Positions 14,854 to 22,956 of a stretch of 64,000 nucleotides of DNA are shown here, one piece after another. Under the pieces are notes generated by a model. It saw only the letters and a list, made by a program, of their open reading frames with translations. It made no database searches and was not told the DNA's origin. The position numbers and the translations under genes were made by a program. How positions within the stretch are numbered: position 1 is the first letter of the stretch; each line of letters opens with the position of its first letter. Source of the stretch: an uncultured Granulosicoccaceae bacterium (GTDB lineage: Bacteria > Pseudomonadota > Gammaproteobacteria > Granulosicoccales > Granulosicoccaceae); the NCBI GenBank assembly GCA_937957915.1, contig CALGNZ010000047.1:62001-126000 (forward strand). Direction: 5' to 3'.

Positions 14854-15141
14854 GTGTGGATTTTATCAGATAACTTGCGGTGTCCGGGGGTAGTGAAGCA
14901 CGTGTATTTCTCAATGGTCGACATTTTCGGTATTACTTGACGATTCGTACTGCGTTGTATGCACAATCATCCGTTCCTATGGCCCTCGTCGCATACGGAT
15001 TGGCGGATTTCTTCGGTATCGACAGGGAGCGCAAGGTCCGTATGCTCAGGTCTTTGTGAGATCGGTTCTTACTGGCACATAGGCTGCTACTAGGGTGTGT
15101 TCGCGCCATTTTGGTTCGGCAGATACATTTCAGGGCAGAGT

Positions 15142-16260
15142 ATGTGCAATTTTAATTTGGTGAGTGATCGAATCCTCGGGACTCTGGTGAGTGTCATTTG
15201 TTCGCTGCTTACATTAATGGCATTTCCCACTGCAGCGGATCCGCTTCTGCAGCCGTTTGAATTACACGCACCAATTGAAACAGAGTCAAAATTACCATCT
15301 TCGGGCGCTGCGCTGGCAGGGCCTATGGAGCAGGTGATGCGATCTGTTGTGCGGGTTGATGCGCTGGTGCCGGAAACGGCTCGTACGGCATCAACGTATG
15401 GCCGAGAGCGTACCGGAACCGGGGTGGTGATCGATGCTAACGGGCTGATCTTAACCGTTGGTTATATAGTCGCTGAAGCAAGTTCTGTATTAGTAACGTT
15501 CTCCGATGGAGATAAAGTCCCGAGTGAAATTGTGGCCTATGATCACGCCAGTGGTGTGGCATTGCTACGCGCCAGTAAGCACATCGCAACTCGACCTATC
15601 AAGCTGGCCAAATCAGATACCACCACGAAAGGTGAACACGCATTGATAATTCCTTTCAATGGAGAGGATGCGGTGCGTGCTGTAAAAATTGGCAAAATTA
15701 AAGAGTTTATCGGTGGTTGGGAGTATGTGCTGGACGATGCCATACATACCTTTCCACCGAGCACCGATTTTGCGGGTTCGGCGCTACTGTCGCAAAAAGG
15801 AGAGTTGTTAGGTGTTGGTGCACTGGTGACTATCGACATCGATATTGATCCAAAAATTCGTGTGCCCGGCAACGTGTTTATCCCAATCTCGGCCGTCAAA
15901 GGTATATTGGGGGATTTGCTGACCAGCGGTCGCTCCAGCGAATCTCACAGGCCGTGGATCGGACTGCATCTGAAAGAAACAAAAGACGGGATTAAAGTAA
16001 GTGCGGTGGAAGATGAAAGTCCGGCTGCAGTGTCCGGGATACAGCCTGGCGATACAATAGTAGCGGTCGAACAACACAAGCTCAAAAGCCTGACTCACTT
16101 TTATCATAAGGTTTGGAGTGAGCATGAGCCCGGCGATAAAATTCACCTTTTAGTTGTACGCGACGAACAATATGCAAATGTGCCGGTAGAAACGGTCGAT
16201 TTGCATAAGTGGCTGAATTTTGAAAAAGCCACGCCGGCAATTACGGAGCTGGAAGATTAG
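15142..16260 (+). CDS. Exported HtrA-like trypsin-fold protein with PDZ domain and lost catalytic triad
   Basis: A 372-residue protein from ATG 15142, with a signal peptide (about 1-32), a trypsin-like domain (about 60-240) and one PDZ domain (about 265-355; GIQPGDTIVAVEQHKL). The fold follows HtrA/DegP closely, but all three catalytic positions are replaced. ILTNNHVV becomes ILTVGYIV (His to Tyr108), TDIALL becomes SGVALL (Asp to Gly138) and GNSGGPL becomes FAGSALL (Ser to Ala211). It is therefore a pseudo-protease, perhaps a peptide-binding chaperone or sensor in the periplasm. A GTG at 15097 would extend the N-terminus and blur the leader. The downstream neighbour, 65 bases on, is an equally degenerate GGDEF membrane protein. 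Confidence 0.82.
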   Translation: MCNFNLVSDRILGTLVSVICSLLTLMAFPTAADPLLQPFELHAPIETESKLPSSGAALAGPMEQVMRSVVRVDALVPETARTASTYGRERTGTGVVIDANGLILTVGYIVAEASSVLVTFSDGDKVPSEIVAYDHASGVALLRASKHIATRPIKLAKSDTTTKGEHALIIPFNGEDAVRAVKIGKIKEFIGGWEYVLDDAIHTFPPSTDFAGSALLSQKGELLGVGALVTIDIDIDPKIRVPGNVFIPISAVKGILGDLLTSGRSSESHRPWIGLHLKETKDGIKVSAVEDESPAAVSGIQPGDTIVAVEQHKLKSLTHFYHKVWSEHEPGDKIHLLVVRDEQYANVPVETVDLHKWLNFEKATPAITELED

Positions 16261-16325
16261 TGCTGGTGCAGGACGGGTTGTCAGTATGCGTTTGCTAGTC
16301 TGCAGTACTACACTGGAATATTGAA

Positions 16326-17159
16326 TTGTTATCGATTGCTCTTCTTACAACAGCTGGCCTGTTGGCGCTTGCATGTGTACTGGTTTATCGCACCCACAAA
16401 CTACTGTCCAACCACAAGCTGCGTCAGGCATGGTTGCGATTTACCTGTTTACTGGCGACCGTAACCACTTTTGTGCTGTTCTTCGGTATTTCGACTGTTG
16501 TTTTCACCGAAACTTCAGAACTGGGTATCTACTTACTCCCTCCGTGTTTTGCAGCGTTGTGCCTATCGCTCTCACTGTTAATTCGACAGACGCTCATACA
16601 CTTGCGGCATCTCTATCAGCGCGATGGTATTGGTATATTTGATAAAGTCACAAATGTTCACAATCGATACTATCTTGAGCAACGCCTGGAGGCGGAAATA
16701 GCACGAAGTAATCGATATAACACGCCATTAGCTCTGGTATCGGTTGAAGTAAATGGCTTTGAAAGCCTGAGTGATGAGTACGGTCATCAGGCAGGTGATA
16801 TGGCTGCGTCCGTGGTAGCTCAATCGCTAAAAAATACACTTCGAGAAACAGATGTTATTACGCGGTACCACCCTGGATGTTTTCTACTCATACTTCCCGA
16901 TACACCTGAGGGAAATGTATATTCGTTGATTGCCCGACTTGAAAATGCTTTGAACAACAGGGTAGTTATTAAAGGAAGTGAGAGCGAAAAATCACTTTGT
17001 ATTACTGTCAGGTTCGGTATCTCCACGTGCACTCTGGCAACCTGTAGCGCTCAGGAATTAATCACAAAAGCCCTGGAAATGCCTGGAACTGACAACAAGA
17101 AGATGTCAGTAGTTAAGCCTGCAGATTCGGTCGGTCAAGAGCGCTTCGAGTTAACCTGA
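16326..17159 (+). CDS. Membrane protein with degenerate GGDEF domain
   Basis: A 277-residue protein: three hydrophobic segments (about 1-21, 39-61, 67-90) and then a GGDEF-fold domain (about 103-265). The frame DKVTNVHNRYYLEQRL, YGHQAGD and RFGIST place it in the diguanylate cyclase family. However, the signature is HPGCF (182-186) in place of GGDEF, and the metal-binding stretch VDxDxFK reads VEVNGFE. It should not make c-di-GMP; it may bind a partner or nucleotide. The start is TTG 16326, since there is no ATG before the membrane segments and the TTG gives a complete first helix. It lies just downstream of the HtrA-like pseudo-enzyme, probably in one transcript. Confidence 0.8.
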   Translation: MLSIALLTTAGLLALACVLVYRTHKLLSNHKLRQAWLRFTCLLATVTTFVLFFGISTVVFTETSELGIYLLPPCFAALCLSLSLLIRQTLIHLRHLYQRDGIGIFDKVTNVHNRYYLEQRLEAEIARSNRYNTPLALVSVEVNGFESLSDEYGHQAGDMAASVVAQSLKNTLRETDVITRYHPGCFLLILPDTPEGNVYSLIARLENALNNRVVIKGSESEKSLCITVRFGISTCTLATCSAQELITKALEMPGTDNKKMSVVKPADSVGQERFELT

Positions 17160-17313: not shown

Positions 17314-17649
17314 ATGAAAGCAATTTTGAAGAAAAGTTCCGCAGCTGAACCGTTCAGTTTTTCTTTCGTAAATAGCGATGGAAAGATGGTTTTGCGCAGT
17401 GAAAATTACAAAGCGAAAGATAGTGCAAATAAAGGAATCAACTCCGTTAAGAAAAACTGTACTGAGGATAAACGGTACATTTTGAAAGAATCTTCAAACG
17501 GTATGTATTTTTTTAATGTGAAATCAGCGAATGGGCAGGTTGTTGCAACCAGTGCCATGTATCCCACCGTTGACGATCGTGCACAGGCCATCAATCAGAT
17601 CAAAGCACTGATACCAGGTTGTGAAGTAGAAGAGCAATTGGGGGGATAG
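17314..17649 (+). CDS. YegP family (DUF1508) protein
   Basis: A 111-residue protein made of two tandem DUF1508 repeats. The first runs from about residue 11 (PFSFSFVNSDGKMVLRSENY) and the second from about 62 (GMYFFNVKSANGQVVATSAMY), each followed by a helix (SANKGINSVKKN; RAQAINQIKAL). The architecture and length are those of E. coli YegP (UPF0339). No signal peptide, so cytoplasmic. A strong AGGAGA site stands ahead of the ATG. The biochemical role of the family is not established. It is followed at once by a clear hairpin, so it is probably its own transcription unit. Confidence 0.9.
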   Translation: MKAILKKSSAAEPFSFSFVNSDGKMVLRSENYKAKDSANKGINSVKKNCTEDKRYILKESSNGMYFFNVKSANGQVVATSAMYPTVDDRAQAINQIKALIPGCEVEEQLGG

Positions 17650-17788: not shown

Positions 17789-18430
17789 CTAGCTGACAAT
17801 CAAATAGGGAAGAATTCTTCTGGAAGTTTCCATGAGCTTCTGGAATATAGGAATGCCCAGAATACTCAGCAGAATCAGCCCAAGAAATATAAAGTGTCCG
17901 TAGCGGGCATTAAAATCCAGATATTTACTGGATAAGGGTTGTGGGAGTATGTGGCCTAGTATGTAGTGACCGTCAAGCGGTCCAAGAGGCAACAAATTAA
18001 ATAACATCAGCAGAAGATTTACGCTTGCAAGCAGCAGAAAGAAGTACTCAGGACCGGCTTGGTGAAACCACGGATTTCCTGACTTTTGACCCCACACAAG
18101 AACATTGATGGTTATAAAAGCCAGTATCAAATTCATGAATGGTCCGGCCGCAGCAATGAGTGGTGTGGCGAGACTGTGATTGAAGTTTCGAGGATTAGTA
18201 GGGACCGGTTTTGCGTAGCCAAACCCTACAAGTATGACCATTAATAATCCGATCGGGTCTATATGCGCCAGAGGGTTAATGTTGAGTCTTCCCATTCTCT
18301 GCGCTGTGTCATCGCCAAAGAACTTTGCGGACGCGGCGTGCCCGAATTCATGAAAAGTCAACGATATTATTAGTGCTATAACTATTAGCGCAAATAACGC
18401 ATATTGTTGATTGTAGAGAAGTGCCAGCAT
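17789..18430 (-). CDS. Site-2 protease family (M50) membrane peptidase
   Basis: A 213-residue intramembrane zinc protease of the short M50 type, with four or five hydrophobic segments. The zinc motif is HEFGH (27-31) and the third ligand is Asp153 in LLPLGPLDGHYI, matching the NxxPxxxxDG pattern of the family. DTAQRMGRLNINPLAHIDPIG is also typical. It lacks PDZ or CBS domains. Proteases of this size cleave membrane-bound substrates, but natural substrates are mostly unknown. It has a weak ribosome-binding site at 18430 and lies 69 bases after the acyl-CoA ligase gene in the same direction, so it may share its transcript. Confidence 0.9.
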   Translation of the reverse strand: MLALLYNQQYALFALIVIALIISLTFHEFGHAASAKFFGDDTAQRMGRLNINPLAHIDPIGLLMVILVGFGYAKPVPTNPRNFNHSLATPLIAAAGPFMNLILAFITINVLVWGQKSGNPWFHQAGPEYFFLLLASVNLLLMLFNLLPLGPLDGHYILGHILPQPLSSKYLDFNARYGHFIFLGLILLSILGIPIFQKLMETSRRILPYLIVS

Positions 18431-18499
18431 AGGTTAGCTCGCCGGTTATGTATCGTGTGTGAGTGTTCTTTGTGTGAATGTGCTTTATGAAGTGTACTT

Positions 18500-20131
18500 T
18501 TATGCACCGGGCAGCTGATGATTGCCGTAGCGTTCTCTGAGCTTTAGTTTATTTAGTTTTCCAGTTGCACCATGCGGTAACTCATCGACAAAAATTACAT
18601 CATCTGGTAACTGCCATCGTGCCAGATTTGTAGCCAGAAATTCCAACAGGGTGGCTTTGTCTACCGCTGAGTGAGGTTCTTTAACTGCTATTACTAAAGG
18701 TCGTTCGTCCCACTTAGGATGTGGTACCGCGATTACTGCAGCTTCTATAATATCCGGGTGGCCAACCGCAAGGTTTTCTATTTCGATTGAACTGATCCAC
18801 TCTCCACCTGATTTAATAACGTCTTTTGTTCGGTCGGTTATCATCATATAGCCATCTTTATCAATGGTTGCGACATCACCAGTTTCGAACCATCCGTCTG
18901 CGTCTATTGAATCATCGCCTTCTGCCTTGTAATACCCTGAGGTTACCCAGTGTCCACGCGCTTGCAATCTGCCAAATGCGCTACCGTCATGTGGTAAGGA
19001 CCTGCCTTCGTCATCAACAATTCGAATATCAATCCCGAATATGGACTTGCCCTGTTTTAATTTGATTGGCATTTGTTCATCGTAGCTTAGGTTCTGCAAA
19101 TGCGGCATAAGGAAGTTGAGAGTTCCAAGTGGGCTTGTTTCGGTCATGCCCCACGCGTGCACTACCTGCACATCGTAGTCCGCTTCAAATGAACGAATCA
19201 TCGCTTCCGGAACTGCTGAACCACCGATGACAACCCGCTTCATATGCGGCAGAAAGGCTTTGCTTTCGCGCAAATAGCCAGTCAGCATCATCCAGACCGT
19301 AGGAACAGCCAGTGACAACGTGCACTTTTCCTGGTCGAGTAATTCGTAGATTGAAGCTCCATCCATTGCCGGGCCAGGTAATACTAGTTTGCAGCCATTC
19401 ATAGGGGCAGCGTAACTGACACCCCACGAATTCACATGAAATTGTGGCACTACCAGCAGGACGGTGTCAGTGGCAGAGAGTCCAAGTCCGTTGGGGATCG
19501 AGCTTCCCATTGCATGTATCAGGGTTGAGCGATGCGAATAGACAACGCCTTTGGGATTGCCTGTGGTACCTGAGGTGTAACACATACTGGATGCAGAATT
19601 TTCGTCAAACTCGGGCCATTGATAGCTACTGTCACCCTTGTCGATCAGGTCTTCGTAACACTGAACGTTTGACAGGCTGGTGGCAGGCATATGCTCTCGG
19701 TCTGTCATAACAACGATGTGTTCAATCTGCTCGAGTTGATCAGCAAGGCTTTCGAGCAGTGGCACAAATGTTAAATCAGTGAATAGAATATTGGCGCCAC
19801 CGTGATTAATAACATAGGCCATTTGTTCGGCAAACAGACGAGGGTTTATCGTGTGCAGAACAGCCTGGCTGCCAGAGACACCAAAATACAATTCCATGTG
19901 CCTGTAGCCATTCCAGGCCAGGGTACCCACACGATCACCAGGCTTTACGCCTAGACCCTGAAGGGCGTCGGCAATACTCCGGGCTCGAACACCCATTTCT
20001 TTATAGGTGTACCGGTGTATTGGTCCCTCGGTAGTGCGGGAAACGACTTCAACATTCGGATACCAGCGTTCAGCAAACTCGATGATGCTTGAGATCATCA
20101 GTGAATGTTGTTGCATCAGGCCCTGGAACAT
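18500..20131 (-). CDS. Fatty acid--CoA ligase (AlkK-like acyl-CoA synthetase)
   Basis: A 543-residue AMP-forming ligase, expected to activate a medium- or long-chain fatty acid to its CoA ester. The AMP/P-loop motif is [11 protein letters not shown] (185-195). Further motifs are [47 protein letters not shown] and the C-terminal catalytic-lysine region [11 protein letters not shown]. The [13 protein letters not shown] stretch and length resemble AlkK-type enzymes more than classical FadD. The start at 20131 has a textbook GGAGG site. A second ligase is encoded at 27525-29216. The neighbours (M50 protease, ctpA) give no pathway clue. Confidence 0.9.
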
Positions 20132-20187
20132 TTTTCCTCCGGTGTAATTGGGATTTGGAACCAGAAGATAGCAAAATCAGGGGGCAG

Positions 20188-20239
20188 AAACATCGATAGC
20201 GTCGCGCAGACTGCGATTGCGCGGGCTCTATCGATGTTT
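20188..20239. terminator. Long two-part hairpin between ctpA and acyl-CoA ligase
   Basis: AAACATCGATAG at 20188-20199 pairs exactly with 20228-20239, and an inner CGCGCA (20203-20208) pairs with TGCGCG (20218-20223). The result is one long stem with a small internal loop. It lies downstream of ctpA on the minus strand and upstream of the ligase start. T-rich bases follow the stem on both strands (TTTTG on plus, TTTCTG on minus), so it is a good candidate terminator for the envC-ctpA unit, possibly working in both directions. Confidence 0.65.
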
Positions 20240-20317
20240 TGCATTTGGAAAACGGGAGGGGCTACCGCATTGCAGCCCGCAAGAGGTTATAAAGCCCGTT
20301 ATTGGCCGATTCTGGAA

Positions 20318-21631
20318 TTAACCGCGGCGACTCAGGATAGTCAGCCCTTTAAGCAGGTTCAGTGCTTCATTGAGCTGGTAGTCGTCCTCAGCAAGGTTTG
20401 GTTTGTCGTCACTGTTGCTGGTCTCTTCCTTTTGCTCTTCTGCATCCGACTGGTTGCTGAGGTGCCCGGAGAGACTGGACTCTGTAATCGGCTCAATACC
20501 GGATTCTTCGCGCTTAGCCAGGCGAAGGTTATCGGTGACGATATCCGGATTAATACCTTCTGCCTGAATTGATCGTCCGGATGGTGTGTAGTACCTGGCT
20601 GTGGTCAGTTTGACCGCACCGCCATTTGCCAGATTCTGGATTGTTTGCACCGATCCTTTGCCGAAAGTTTTGTTGCCCATGACAACACCGCGGTTGTGAT
20701 CCTGCATTGCTCCGGCAACAATCTCGGAAGCAGATGCGGAACCACCGTTAACGAGTACCACCAGCGGGGCGCCATCCAGTACGTCACCCTGTGATGCCGA
20801 GTAGCGTAGTCTGGAGTCTTCTTCGCGACCATCGGTGTAGACAATCAACCCTTCATTTAAAAAGGCGTCAGAGATACCGACTGCTGCAGAAAGAACCCCA
20901 CCCGGGTTGTTGCGGAGATCGAGAACCAGGCCGTTCATTTCGCCATCAGTTTCCGACTTCATTTTCTCAATAGCTTTCAGCATGTCTGCTGTTGTTTTGG
21001 TTTGAAAGTGTGACACGCGCACGTAACCATAACCTTCTTCCAGTATGCGGTTTTTAACACTGGTTACCTGGATGACGGCGCGGGTAATAGTGACTTTCAG
21101 CGGTTTGTCTTCACCCTCACGAACAACTGTCAAATTTATGTCGCTACCTGGCTTTCCGCGCATCAGTTTGACTGCTTCGTTTAACGACAAGCCTTTGACC
21201 GGTTTGTCGTCAAGACGAATGATAAGGTCACCGGTTTGCATGCCGGCTCGTGCGGCGGGCGTATCGTCGATAGGTGAGACCACCTTGACGAAACCATCTT
21301 CCATTCCTACTTCTATACCCAGACCACCAAATTCGCCTGAGGTACCAATACGCAATTCATTGAATTGTTCTGTATTGAGATAGCTTGAATGCGGGTCAAG
21401 ACCGCTTAACATGCCGCGAATGGCGTGTTCCAGTAATTCTTCGTCCGATACATCCTCGACGTAGTTTCGTTTAATTCTTGCGAATACATCGGAAAAGGTT
21501 CGCAATTGGTCAAGAGGCAGTACATCACCCGAGTTGTCTCTTGCGCCAACGACACCCTGGCCCATAGTCAGGGTAACACCCAGTACTGCGCCGACGGCGA
21601 GAAACGTGAGAGGCTTAGACCGGATTGTCAT
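20318..21631 (-). CDS. ctpA: S41 family carboxy-terminal processing protease
   Basis: A 437-residue periplasmic serine protease that cleaves at the C-terminal side of envelope proteins; in Gram-negatives it controls peptidoglycan hydrolases. From ATG 21631: a signal/anchor helix (about 8-26), an N-terminal helical part with LSGLDPHSSYL, a PDZ domain (about 97-185; GGLGIEV), then the S41 core with LDLRNNPGGVLSAAV. The catalytic Ser300 lies in GGSASASE and Lys325 in TFGKGS, 25 residues apart as in Prc. An upstream ATG at 21679 is possible, but 21631 has a GGAG site at the right distance. It follows envC by 86 bases, a common gammaproteobacterial order. The tail after 390 is acidic and low-complexity. 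Confidence 0.93.
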   Translation of the reverse strand: MTIRSKPLTFLAVGAVLGVTLTMGQGVVGARDNSGDVLPLDQLRTFSDVFARIKRNYVEDVSDEELLEHAIRGMLSGLDPHSSYLNTEQFNELRIGTSGEFGGLGIEVGMEDGFVKVVSPIDDTPAARAGMQTGDLIIRLDDKPVKGLSLNEAVKLMRGKPGSDINLTVVREGEDKPLKVTITRAVIQVTSVKNRILEEGYGYVRVSHFQTKTTADMLKAIEKMKSETDGEMNGLVLDLRNNPGGVLSAAVGISDAFLNEGLIVYTDGREEDSRLRYSASQGDVLDGAPLVVLVNGGSASASEIVAGAMQDHNRGVVMGNKTFGKGSVQTIQNLANGGAVKLTTARYYTPSGRSIQAEGINPDIVTDNLRLAKREESGIEPITESSLSGHLSNQSDAEEQKEETSNSDDKPNLAEDDYQLNEALNLLKGLTILSRRG

Positions 21632-21717
21632 TTGTTGACTCCAAATACCCAAAGCGCGGGCTGAAATTTTAGTTTGCACGAACCGACGCAGATAATAGCA
21701 TCACTAATGGTCACCAA

Positions 21718-22956
21718 TCACTCGGTTAATTCAGAACTTATCAACTGCATAGATAGCCAGTCTTCCGGATTTACCGTTTCAGCATTGTGGCGGATCTCAA
21801 AGTATAGCGCTGATGCATCATTTCCGACAGACTCGCCGACAGTACCAATAACCTGCCCGGCGATCACAGTTTGCTTTTCCTCAATAACCAATAACTCTGC
21901 CATGCCGTACAGGCTCATAAAATCTTTGTCATGATCAATAATGGCCACATTGCCTAATCCCTGAATTTTTCCGGCGAAAACCACTTGCCCGTCAAAAATG
22001 GCCTCTATTTCCTGACCCAGGGGTGCCTTTACCAGAATACCTTCCCATTTGAGCAGGCCCTCCGCTTTTGGTTCAGCGTAGCGCCGGTACAAAGTACCCT
22101 CGGTGGGGTCAGGCAGAGACCCCTGATGTCTATCAAATTCCAACGAAGTGTCAGGTGTATCCTTCAAGAGTGTCAGGCGATTGCTCATTCGCTCGATGCG
22201 ATCCTGTTGTCTGACAATGTCCGCTGATAAAAACGTAAACTTTTCTTCCAGCTTTTGTCTGTCTTTGATGAGGGATTGCTGTTTGTCGGTCAGTTTTTGT
22301 ATTGAAGTCTGTATCGTATCATTGAGATCGCTGGTCGTATTTAGCGCGGTCAGCAATTCGCTTTTTTCACTGGTTATCGCTTCAATTTTTCTTTTTTTTA
22401 GATGAATTCTGTACTGCCACAGCGCAATTGCACGATGATGTTCCAGTGCTGTTGTGTCGGCCAGAGCGTCTGCGATAACGCCAGGGATCGGAAGTTCAGC
22501 GGCTTTTTCCTGGCTTTGAGTCAGTTCAGCTTTTTTGTTCTGCAGCAGTATTTCGATCTTTGCCAAATCCAGTTTCAGTTGCTCTAACTCGTTTTGAAGT
22601 GATGGATTTTTGACATTTGTTTTGTCCGAAGCGGTTTTGACGTTTTTCAGATCACTCCCAAGAGTCTCCATTCGTTCAATCAATGCCGTCCTGTGTGCTT
22701 TGGCTGTGCTTATCGACCGCTCGAGTTTGCTAATTGTTTCGTTGTAACGGTCAATGAGTTCTTTGTGCGTGATCGGGCTTGCGGCGGCGTGTTGGAGGCT
22801 GATTGCTGTCAGAAGCATGGCAATCAGACTGAGAGTTAATCCTCGATTGTATCTCTTTAGGCGTGGATAAACTGTCTGCAATGTGGCGGGCACGAACAGG
22901 TAAACACGTGAGCAGACGAAATAGGATGTCAGGGCGCTAGATTTGGTAAGTCGCAT
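21718..22956 (-). CDS. envC: Murein hydrolase activator EnvC (LytM/M23 domain)
   Basis: A 412-residue envelope protein with a hydrophobic leader (about 41-60), a long coiled coil (about 70-270) and a C-terminal LytM domain (about 305-405; ILVKAPLGQEIEAIFDGQVVF, NVAIIDHDKDFMSLYGM, YFEIRHNAETVNPEDWL). EnvC does not cut peptidoglycan itself; its LytM domain lacks catalytic zinc ligands and switches on amidases AmiA/AmiB at the septum under FtsEX control. Here SLYGM stands where active M23 enzymes have a ligand His, in line with that role. The N-terminus is about 40 residues longer than needed before the leader, so an internal start (for example the Met before LLTAISL) is possible. It is cotranscribed with ctpA. 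Confidence 0.9.
   Translation of the reverse strand: MRLTKSSALTSYFVCSRVYLFVPATLQTVYPRLKRYNRGLTLSLIAMLLTAISLQHAAASPITHKELIDRYNETISKLERSISTAKAHRTALIERMETLGSDLKNVKTASDKTNVKNPSLQNELEQLKLDLAKIEILLQNKKAELTQSQEKAAELPIPGVIADALADTTALEHHRAIALWQYRIHLKKRKIEAITSEKSELLTALNTTSDLNDTIQTSIQKLTDKQQSLIKDRQKLEEKFTFLSADIVRQQDRIERMSNRLTLLKDTPDTSLEFDRHQGSLPDPTEGTLYRRYAEPKAEGLLKWEGILVKAPLGQEIEAIFDGQVVFAGKIQGLGNVAIIDHDKDFMSLYGMAELLVIEEKQTVIAGQVIGTVGESVGNDASALYFEIRHNAETVNPEDWLSMQLISSELTE

Follow-up and report, generated by a model that had tools for sequence, protein, structure and literature searches.

Why should two neighbouring genes encode an HtrA-like protein without a catalytic triad and a GGDEF protein without a GGDEF signature? 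Both lie in a stretch of 64,000 nucleotides, here called the window, from the 5.4 Mb draft genome of an uncultured Granulosicoccaceae bacterium. The first gene (15142..16260, with an alternative GTG start at 15097; all features given for the two genes are on the plus strand) encodes an exported protein of 372 amino acids, termed pseudo-HtrA here. It is followed after 65 bp by a gene with a TTG start (16326..17159) encoding an inner-membrane protein of 277 amino acids with a degenerate GGDEF domain. A preliminary description of this DNA, whose coordinates, gap length and named substitutions all proved correct on recheck, had proposed that both proteins lost catalysis and were kept for binding, the PDZ protein acting as a periplasmic sensor that talks to its membrane-bound neighbour. 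The explanation that we favour on balance is a periplasmic, non-proteolytic PDZ protein beside an inner-membrane c-di-GMP receptor, the two genes forming a locus that is conserved within a single clade of the Granulosicoccaceae.

The pseudo-HtrA protein and its wider family

The pseudo-HtrA gene was found at the identical locus in all 14 genomes of the genus that were examined and in one genome (G017) of a sister genus of the Granulosicoccaceae, the orthologues being 43–56% identical. Among named relatives, it is carried by MAGs of the Granulosicoccaceae and by ‘Chromatiales bacterium (ex Bugula neritina AB1)’. A signal peptide is predicted (15142..15237) with putative cleavage after Ala32 (TAA-DP), as suggested by a hydrophobic stretch followed by a near-invariant A-D-P in the orthologues. 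A Trypsin_2 pseudo-protease domain (residues 92–225; 15415..15816) and a PDZ domain (residues 272–350; 15955..16191) follow. That the folds are intact, as had been claimed for both gene products, is borne out by the Pfam matches (Trypsin_2, 7.7e-15; PDZ_2, 2.2e-14; GGDEF of the neighbouring protein, 1.5e-25), and the AlphaFold2 model of pseudo-HtrA, of moderate confidence (pLDDT 74), matched DegP, DegS and DegQ in Foldseek.

The triad positions were set by alignment with 18 active HtrAs from the window genome and related genomes, all of which carry H/D/S. In the window protein, Tyr108 (15463..15465) stands in for the catalytic His, Gly138 (15553..15555) for the Asp and Ala211 for the Ser; Ala211 lies within Asp209-Phe210-Ala211 (15766..15774), which replaces Gly193-Asn-Ser195, so that the oxyanion-hole position 193 is occupied by Asp209 instead of Gly. 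The catalytic His is replaced in all 15 orthologues (Tyr in 14, Asp in G004), the catalytic Asp is Gly in 15/15, position 193 is never Gly, and Phe210 is invariant. The exchange of Ser for Ala, correctly described for the window copy, does not extend to the group: it is limited to this copy and G013, while nine orthologues carry Ser and four Thr. The common lesions are thus the losses of His, Asp and Gly193.

Two further stretches are conserved. The motif DIDIDPKxRxPGN (residues 232–244; 15835..15873) is specific to this clade, with D232, D234, D236, K238, R240 and P242–N244 invariant among the 15 orthologues and no counterpart in the wider family described below. The peptide-binding loop of the PDZ domain, W-[IL]-G, is kept, W272 and G274 being invariant. 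Most likely, pseudo-HtrA, whose PDZ domain looks functional, would reside in the periplasm and serve there as a scaffold or chaperone that binds the C-termini of proteins but does not cleave them.

With DegP, DegQ and DegS of the HtrA/Deg (S1C) family, its best sequence and fold matches, the protein shares export and a trypsin-like domain followed by PDZ. It differs in the replacement of all triad positions and of Gly193, in having one PDZ domain, and in belonging to a clade of its own with 100/100 support; it also missed the NCBIfam cut-offs for HtrA/Deg subfamilies (90.8 bits versus 416 for degP_htrA_DO). Another pseudo-protease with a degenerate triad and non-Gly193 is MamO, a Trypsin-2/Deg-derived protein of the magnetosome (PMC4794232). 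MamO, however, originated within the HtrA-type proteases found in magnetotactic bacteria, whereas pseudo-HtrA represents a separate family that is far wider, has PDZ and lacks a magnetosome context.

Scanning genome contigs with the single sequence gave no match; an alignment query did. Among the genomes sampled, profile searches (E <= 1e-28) detected the pseudo-HtrA type in 36 of 399 from the phylum Pseudomonadota, or about 9%, and in 6 of 369 from the class. All 48 aligned members of this wider family have Tyr and Gly at the His and Asp positions, and the Ser position is mostly Gly. A branch with 100/100 support separates the pseudo-HtrAs (the 15 orthologues plus the 48 wider members) from the 18 active HtrAs. 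By its Tyr, its Gly and common ancestry the window protein belongs here, and its position in a pseudo-HtrA clade spanning the Pseudomonadota is well supported. Two paralogue groups within the family likewise lack the triad. The loss of the triad is ancestral to a phylum-wide family and older than the gene pairing, which removes the idea of a paired event in which both neighbours lost catalysis.

A hydrophobic N-terminus was seen in about one quarter of the wider family and is absent from the remainder, so that a cytoplasmic location is probable for many of its members, unlike the exported clade of the window protein. Plasmid-borne members occur in Rhizobium, Neorhizobium and Azospirillum, several copies being annotated as ‘S1C family serine protease’; a cytoplasmic pseudo-HtrA family is probable in the rhizobia and Azospirillum. 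Examples combining pseudo-HtrA and PDZ are L207:2495-3397, L208:2501-3406 and loci L133-L158, most of them without a signal peptide. A second exported pseudo-HtrA paralogue (L176:3157-4269, L177:7620-8849, L178:3010-4191) adjoins a conserved exported protein of ~400 amino acids, the L177 copy of which had no Pfam match; this neighbour is possibly its partner.

The GGDEF protein: a lost active site and a retained inhibitory site

In the AlphaFold2 model of the second protein (pLDDT 79, moderate confidence), three hydrophobic helices (residues 2–26, 30–60 and 66–97; 16329..16616 for residues 2–97) precede a GGDEF-fold domain (residues 105–249; 16638..17072) that matches PleD and others in fold. 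The loop between helices 1 and 2 is basic; by the positive-inside rule, this would place the N-terminus outside and leave a periplasmic loop of only ~5 residues.

The signature GG(D/E)EF is replaced by HPGCF (H182–F186; 16869..16883) and is found in 0/12 paired orthologues. Residues in PleD numbering were mapped via aligned positions: D327, N335 and D344 presumably correspond to residues 141, 149 and 158 of the window protein, E370/E371 to 184/185, R313 to 127, R359/D362 to 173/176 and R390 to 204. Accordingly, Glu141 conservatively replaces the metal ligand D327, and Gly184/Cys185 occupy the positions of E370/E371. Few of the catalytic and GTP-binding positions are kept among the 12 paired orthologues (D327 in 1, N335 in 5, D344 in 4, E370 and E371 in none).

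The inhibitory site (I-site), overlooked in the preliminary description, is intact. Arg127 (16704..16706; equivalent to R313 of the secondary I-site), the Arg and Asp of the primary RxxD motif, here RETD (Arg173–Asp176; 16842..16853), and Arg204 (16935..16937; equivalent to R390) are invariant in 12/12. The protein thus lacks the signature and the two metal ligands of a diguanylate cyclase and possesses the residues of an I-site receptor. As 25 of ~150 columns of the domain are invariant, the chance that all four I-site columns would be so is ~6e-4 by our own calculation, which assumes invariance to be random across columns. Among 25 intact GGDEFs used for comparison, D327 was present in 24 and E371 in all, with the complete set of four I-site residues in only 11. 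Of the 13 intact GGDEFs retrieved as closest matches to the window protein, 11 have this set, as opposed to none of those from its own genome. Because most of these closest matches carry the same four residues, the I-site was probably inherited, and then retained after catalysis was lost. Another degenerate GGDEF of this genome (NAGT; G000:C47:143221-143679, L198) keeps RxxD and R390 and has Ser at R313.

The I-site of PleD comprises R359, D362, R390 and R313* (PMC7288161). The RxxD position agrees with that of DgcR, the wild-type and AxxA I-site mutant structures of which align there; since DgcR has a different second arginine (PMC8041772), cross-linking with PleD-like geometry is proposed by analogy. 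Both proteins resemble the window domain in fold, and with PleD it has the four I-site positions in common; it differs from both in the loss of catalytic and GTP-binding residues. The host genome encodes many intact GGDEFs, and c-di-GMP is therefore presumably made. From its residues, the GGDEF protein is well predicted to be a c-di-GMP receptor acting through the I-site. Having lost GTP binding and catalysis, it would most likely bind dimeric c-di-GMP at the complete inhibitory site; the ligand would bridge two cytoplasmic GGDEF domains and alter the packing of the three-helix membrane part. What the analysis establishes is anatomy, the loss of catalytic residues, conservation, synteny and selection; such binding and cross-linking, and a common envelope process served by both proteins, are what we infer.

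That this domain might bind a nucleotide had been suggested before, with c-di-GMP or GTP in mind; the prediction stands for c-di-GMP, given the I-site in 12/12, and is disfavoured for GTP, the base-binding residues being variable. Degenerate GGDEFs that sense GTP are known (PMC7288161), and the domain could do so like that of CC3396, or merely be a dimerisation fold for an active cyclase. This we consider quite improbable, as the guanine-binding positions N335 and D344 and the metal ligands are unconserved; GTP sensing is disfavoured by that variability among the 12 orthologues.

PelD provides the precedent for a catalytically dead GGDEF receptor (PMC7288161) and resembles the window protein in its membrane anchor and in the c-di-GMP binding expected via RxxD. 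In contrast to PelD, no PelD domain was matched in a Pfam scan (E<=1) and no pel operon or pel-like neighbour was present among the ORFs read around the pair. GGDEF was the sole Pfam match over the 277 amino acids, the periplasmic output domain, HAMP and degenerate EAL of LapD being absent, and NCBIfam scores fell below the cut-offs for LapD (26 bits versus 1020) and SiaD (93 bits versus 290).

Conservation of the locus and the question of partnership

The gene order, read where the contigs of relatives were long enough, is uvrD (divergent), pseudo-HtrA, GGDEF, DUF1508, M50 protease, acyl-CoA synthetase, ctpA and envC. Within the taxonomic order searched, the GGDEF orthologue occurs in 12 genomes and in 12/12 adjoins pseudo-HtrA, the score dropping from 323 to 122 bits at the next match. 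An overlap of 4 bp is seen in G012, and gaps of 6–68 bp separate the two genes in nine other genomes; the gaps are wider in G011 (229 bp) and G017 (346 bp). Scans for sigma-70 promoters and terminators gave matches at chance level only.

Three genomes (G003, G005 and G006) lack the GGDEF gene and retain pseudo-HtrA. A short stretch in G003 and G006 matches the NVKFG codons of the missing gene. The match in G006 covers 17/17 bases (31.9 bits versus 29.2 as the best of 200 shuffles), while those in G003 (28.3 bits) and G005 (31.0 bits) equal the shuffle maximum; near the chance limit as they are, the matches in G003 and G006 are suggestive of deletion remnants.

DUF1508 was considered as a third operon member and rejected, since it persists where GGDEF is lost and is directly preceded in these three genomes (L037, L039, L041) by a conserved non-coding stretch (CTACAAAATATCGTRAC ... 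CTATTTTTTCRRTGATATATT). This stretch is probably the promoter or a regulatory site of DUF1508 itself. The DUF1508 protein (17314-17649) is under very markedly different constraint, with 78–86% identity across the genus versus 24–56% for the two preceding genes. Further downstream, an envelope-protease cluster (17789-22956) comprising an M50 protease without PDZ, CtpA (S41 plus PDZ) and an EnvC-like M23 protein keeps its synteny across the genus.

Are these simply dead or dying enzymes? The loss of GGDEF in three genomes, two of them with the short gene match, and its faster evolution relative to pseudo-HtrA would fit decay. Reading frames, however, are intact in 15/15 pseudo-HtrA and 12/12 GGDEF genes, and dN/dS across the folded domains is 0.02–0.2. 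Since dS is saturated in most pairs, the values come chiefly from G007/G008 (pseudo-protease domain 0.03–0.05, PDZ 0.02–0.06, GGDEF ~0.16) and secondly from G009/G010 (GGDEF 0.06–0.08). Both proteins are maintained by purifying selection. The checks recommended earlier thus came out against decay: dN/dS is well below 1 for both genes, substitutions and pairing are conserved (15 and 12 genomes), and instead of orthologues with intact triads and signatures, His and Asp are lost in 15/15 and the signature is present in 0/12. Open frames, purifying selection and synteny conserved in 12–15 genomes argue against chance, and lesions shared by the orthologues and identical throughout the phylum-wide family against local loss of the triad. 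We therefore reject decay, already refuted for pseudo-HtrA, as extremely improbable.

Whether the two proteins work together is a separate matter. The suspicion that they might never be neighbours elsewhere is dispelled by the 12 genomes. Exclusive co-location and short gaps favour joint work, and we put participation in one common process at somewhat short of an even chance. They may instead be mere neighbours in stable synteny, pseudo-HtrA working alone and the GGDEF protein being an independent c-di-GMP receptor or serving another partner. This tentative but quite possible reading fits the lack of a GGDEF neighbour at any wider-family locus with readable neighbours, the loss of GGDEF only in three genomes, and an equally well conserved surrounding order of uvrD-DUF1508-ctpA. 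It also fits the absence of co-evolution beyond phylogeny, the mirror-tree partial correlation of pseudo-HtrA with GGDEF given UvrD being −0.12 (nine genomes). It is at odds with the overlap in G012, the otherwise short gaps, and the failure to find a GGDEF orthologue apart from pseudo-HtrA within the taxonomic order searched.

Direct contact between the two proteins seems unlikely. The same holds for a trans-envelope pair with the logic of LapD-LapG, in which c-di-GMP bound in the cytoplasm would shift the membrane helices, and these would in turn recruit the PDZ pseudo-protease of the periplasm or set it free. The co-restricted distribution and the conservation of I-site and PDZ binding loop speak for such a pair, as does a known case in which a c-di-GMP receptor goes together with a periplasmic protease (PMC5231407). 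LapD-LapG also combines an inner-membrane dead GGDEF protein with a periplasmic protease-type protein; the window pair, however, lacks EAL, HAMP and a periplasmic output domain, its fold is HtrA rather than LapG, and its protease-like partner is inactive. The sensor function formerly assigned to the PDZ protein sits poorly with pseudo-HtrA occurring alone in three genomes and in the wider family. Crosstalk is unproven, and is weakened by this persistence without GGDEF, by the ~5 periplasmic residues of the model and by the lack of additional co-evolution in the trees.

Relation to known systems and significance

By the features tested, the pair matches none of MamO, PelD and LapD-LapG, and a search of open-licence papers for a link of HtrA with a degenerate GGDEF yielded a single one, which by its title and abstract deals with other matters. 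It would be a novel trans-envelope signalling pair if an inner-membrane dead cyclase, switched by c-di-GMP at its former product-inhibition site, controlled a periplasmic PDZ pseudo-protease from an overlooked, phylum-wide and partly cytoplasmic family, which we regard as unlikely. The favoured explanation, a non-proteolytic PDZ protein beside a c-di-GMP receptor, predicts that pseudo-HtrA functions without proteolysis and that the GGDEF protein binds c-di-GMP by RETD. The locus offers a clean natural case of a diguanylate cyclase that has shed its active site and retained its product-inhibition site, and through it a large family of HtrA proteins comes to light that are inactive yet conserved, some of them misannotated as serine proteases.
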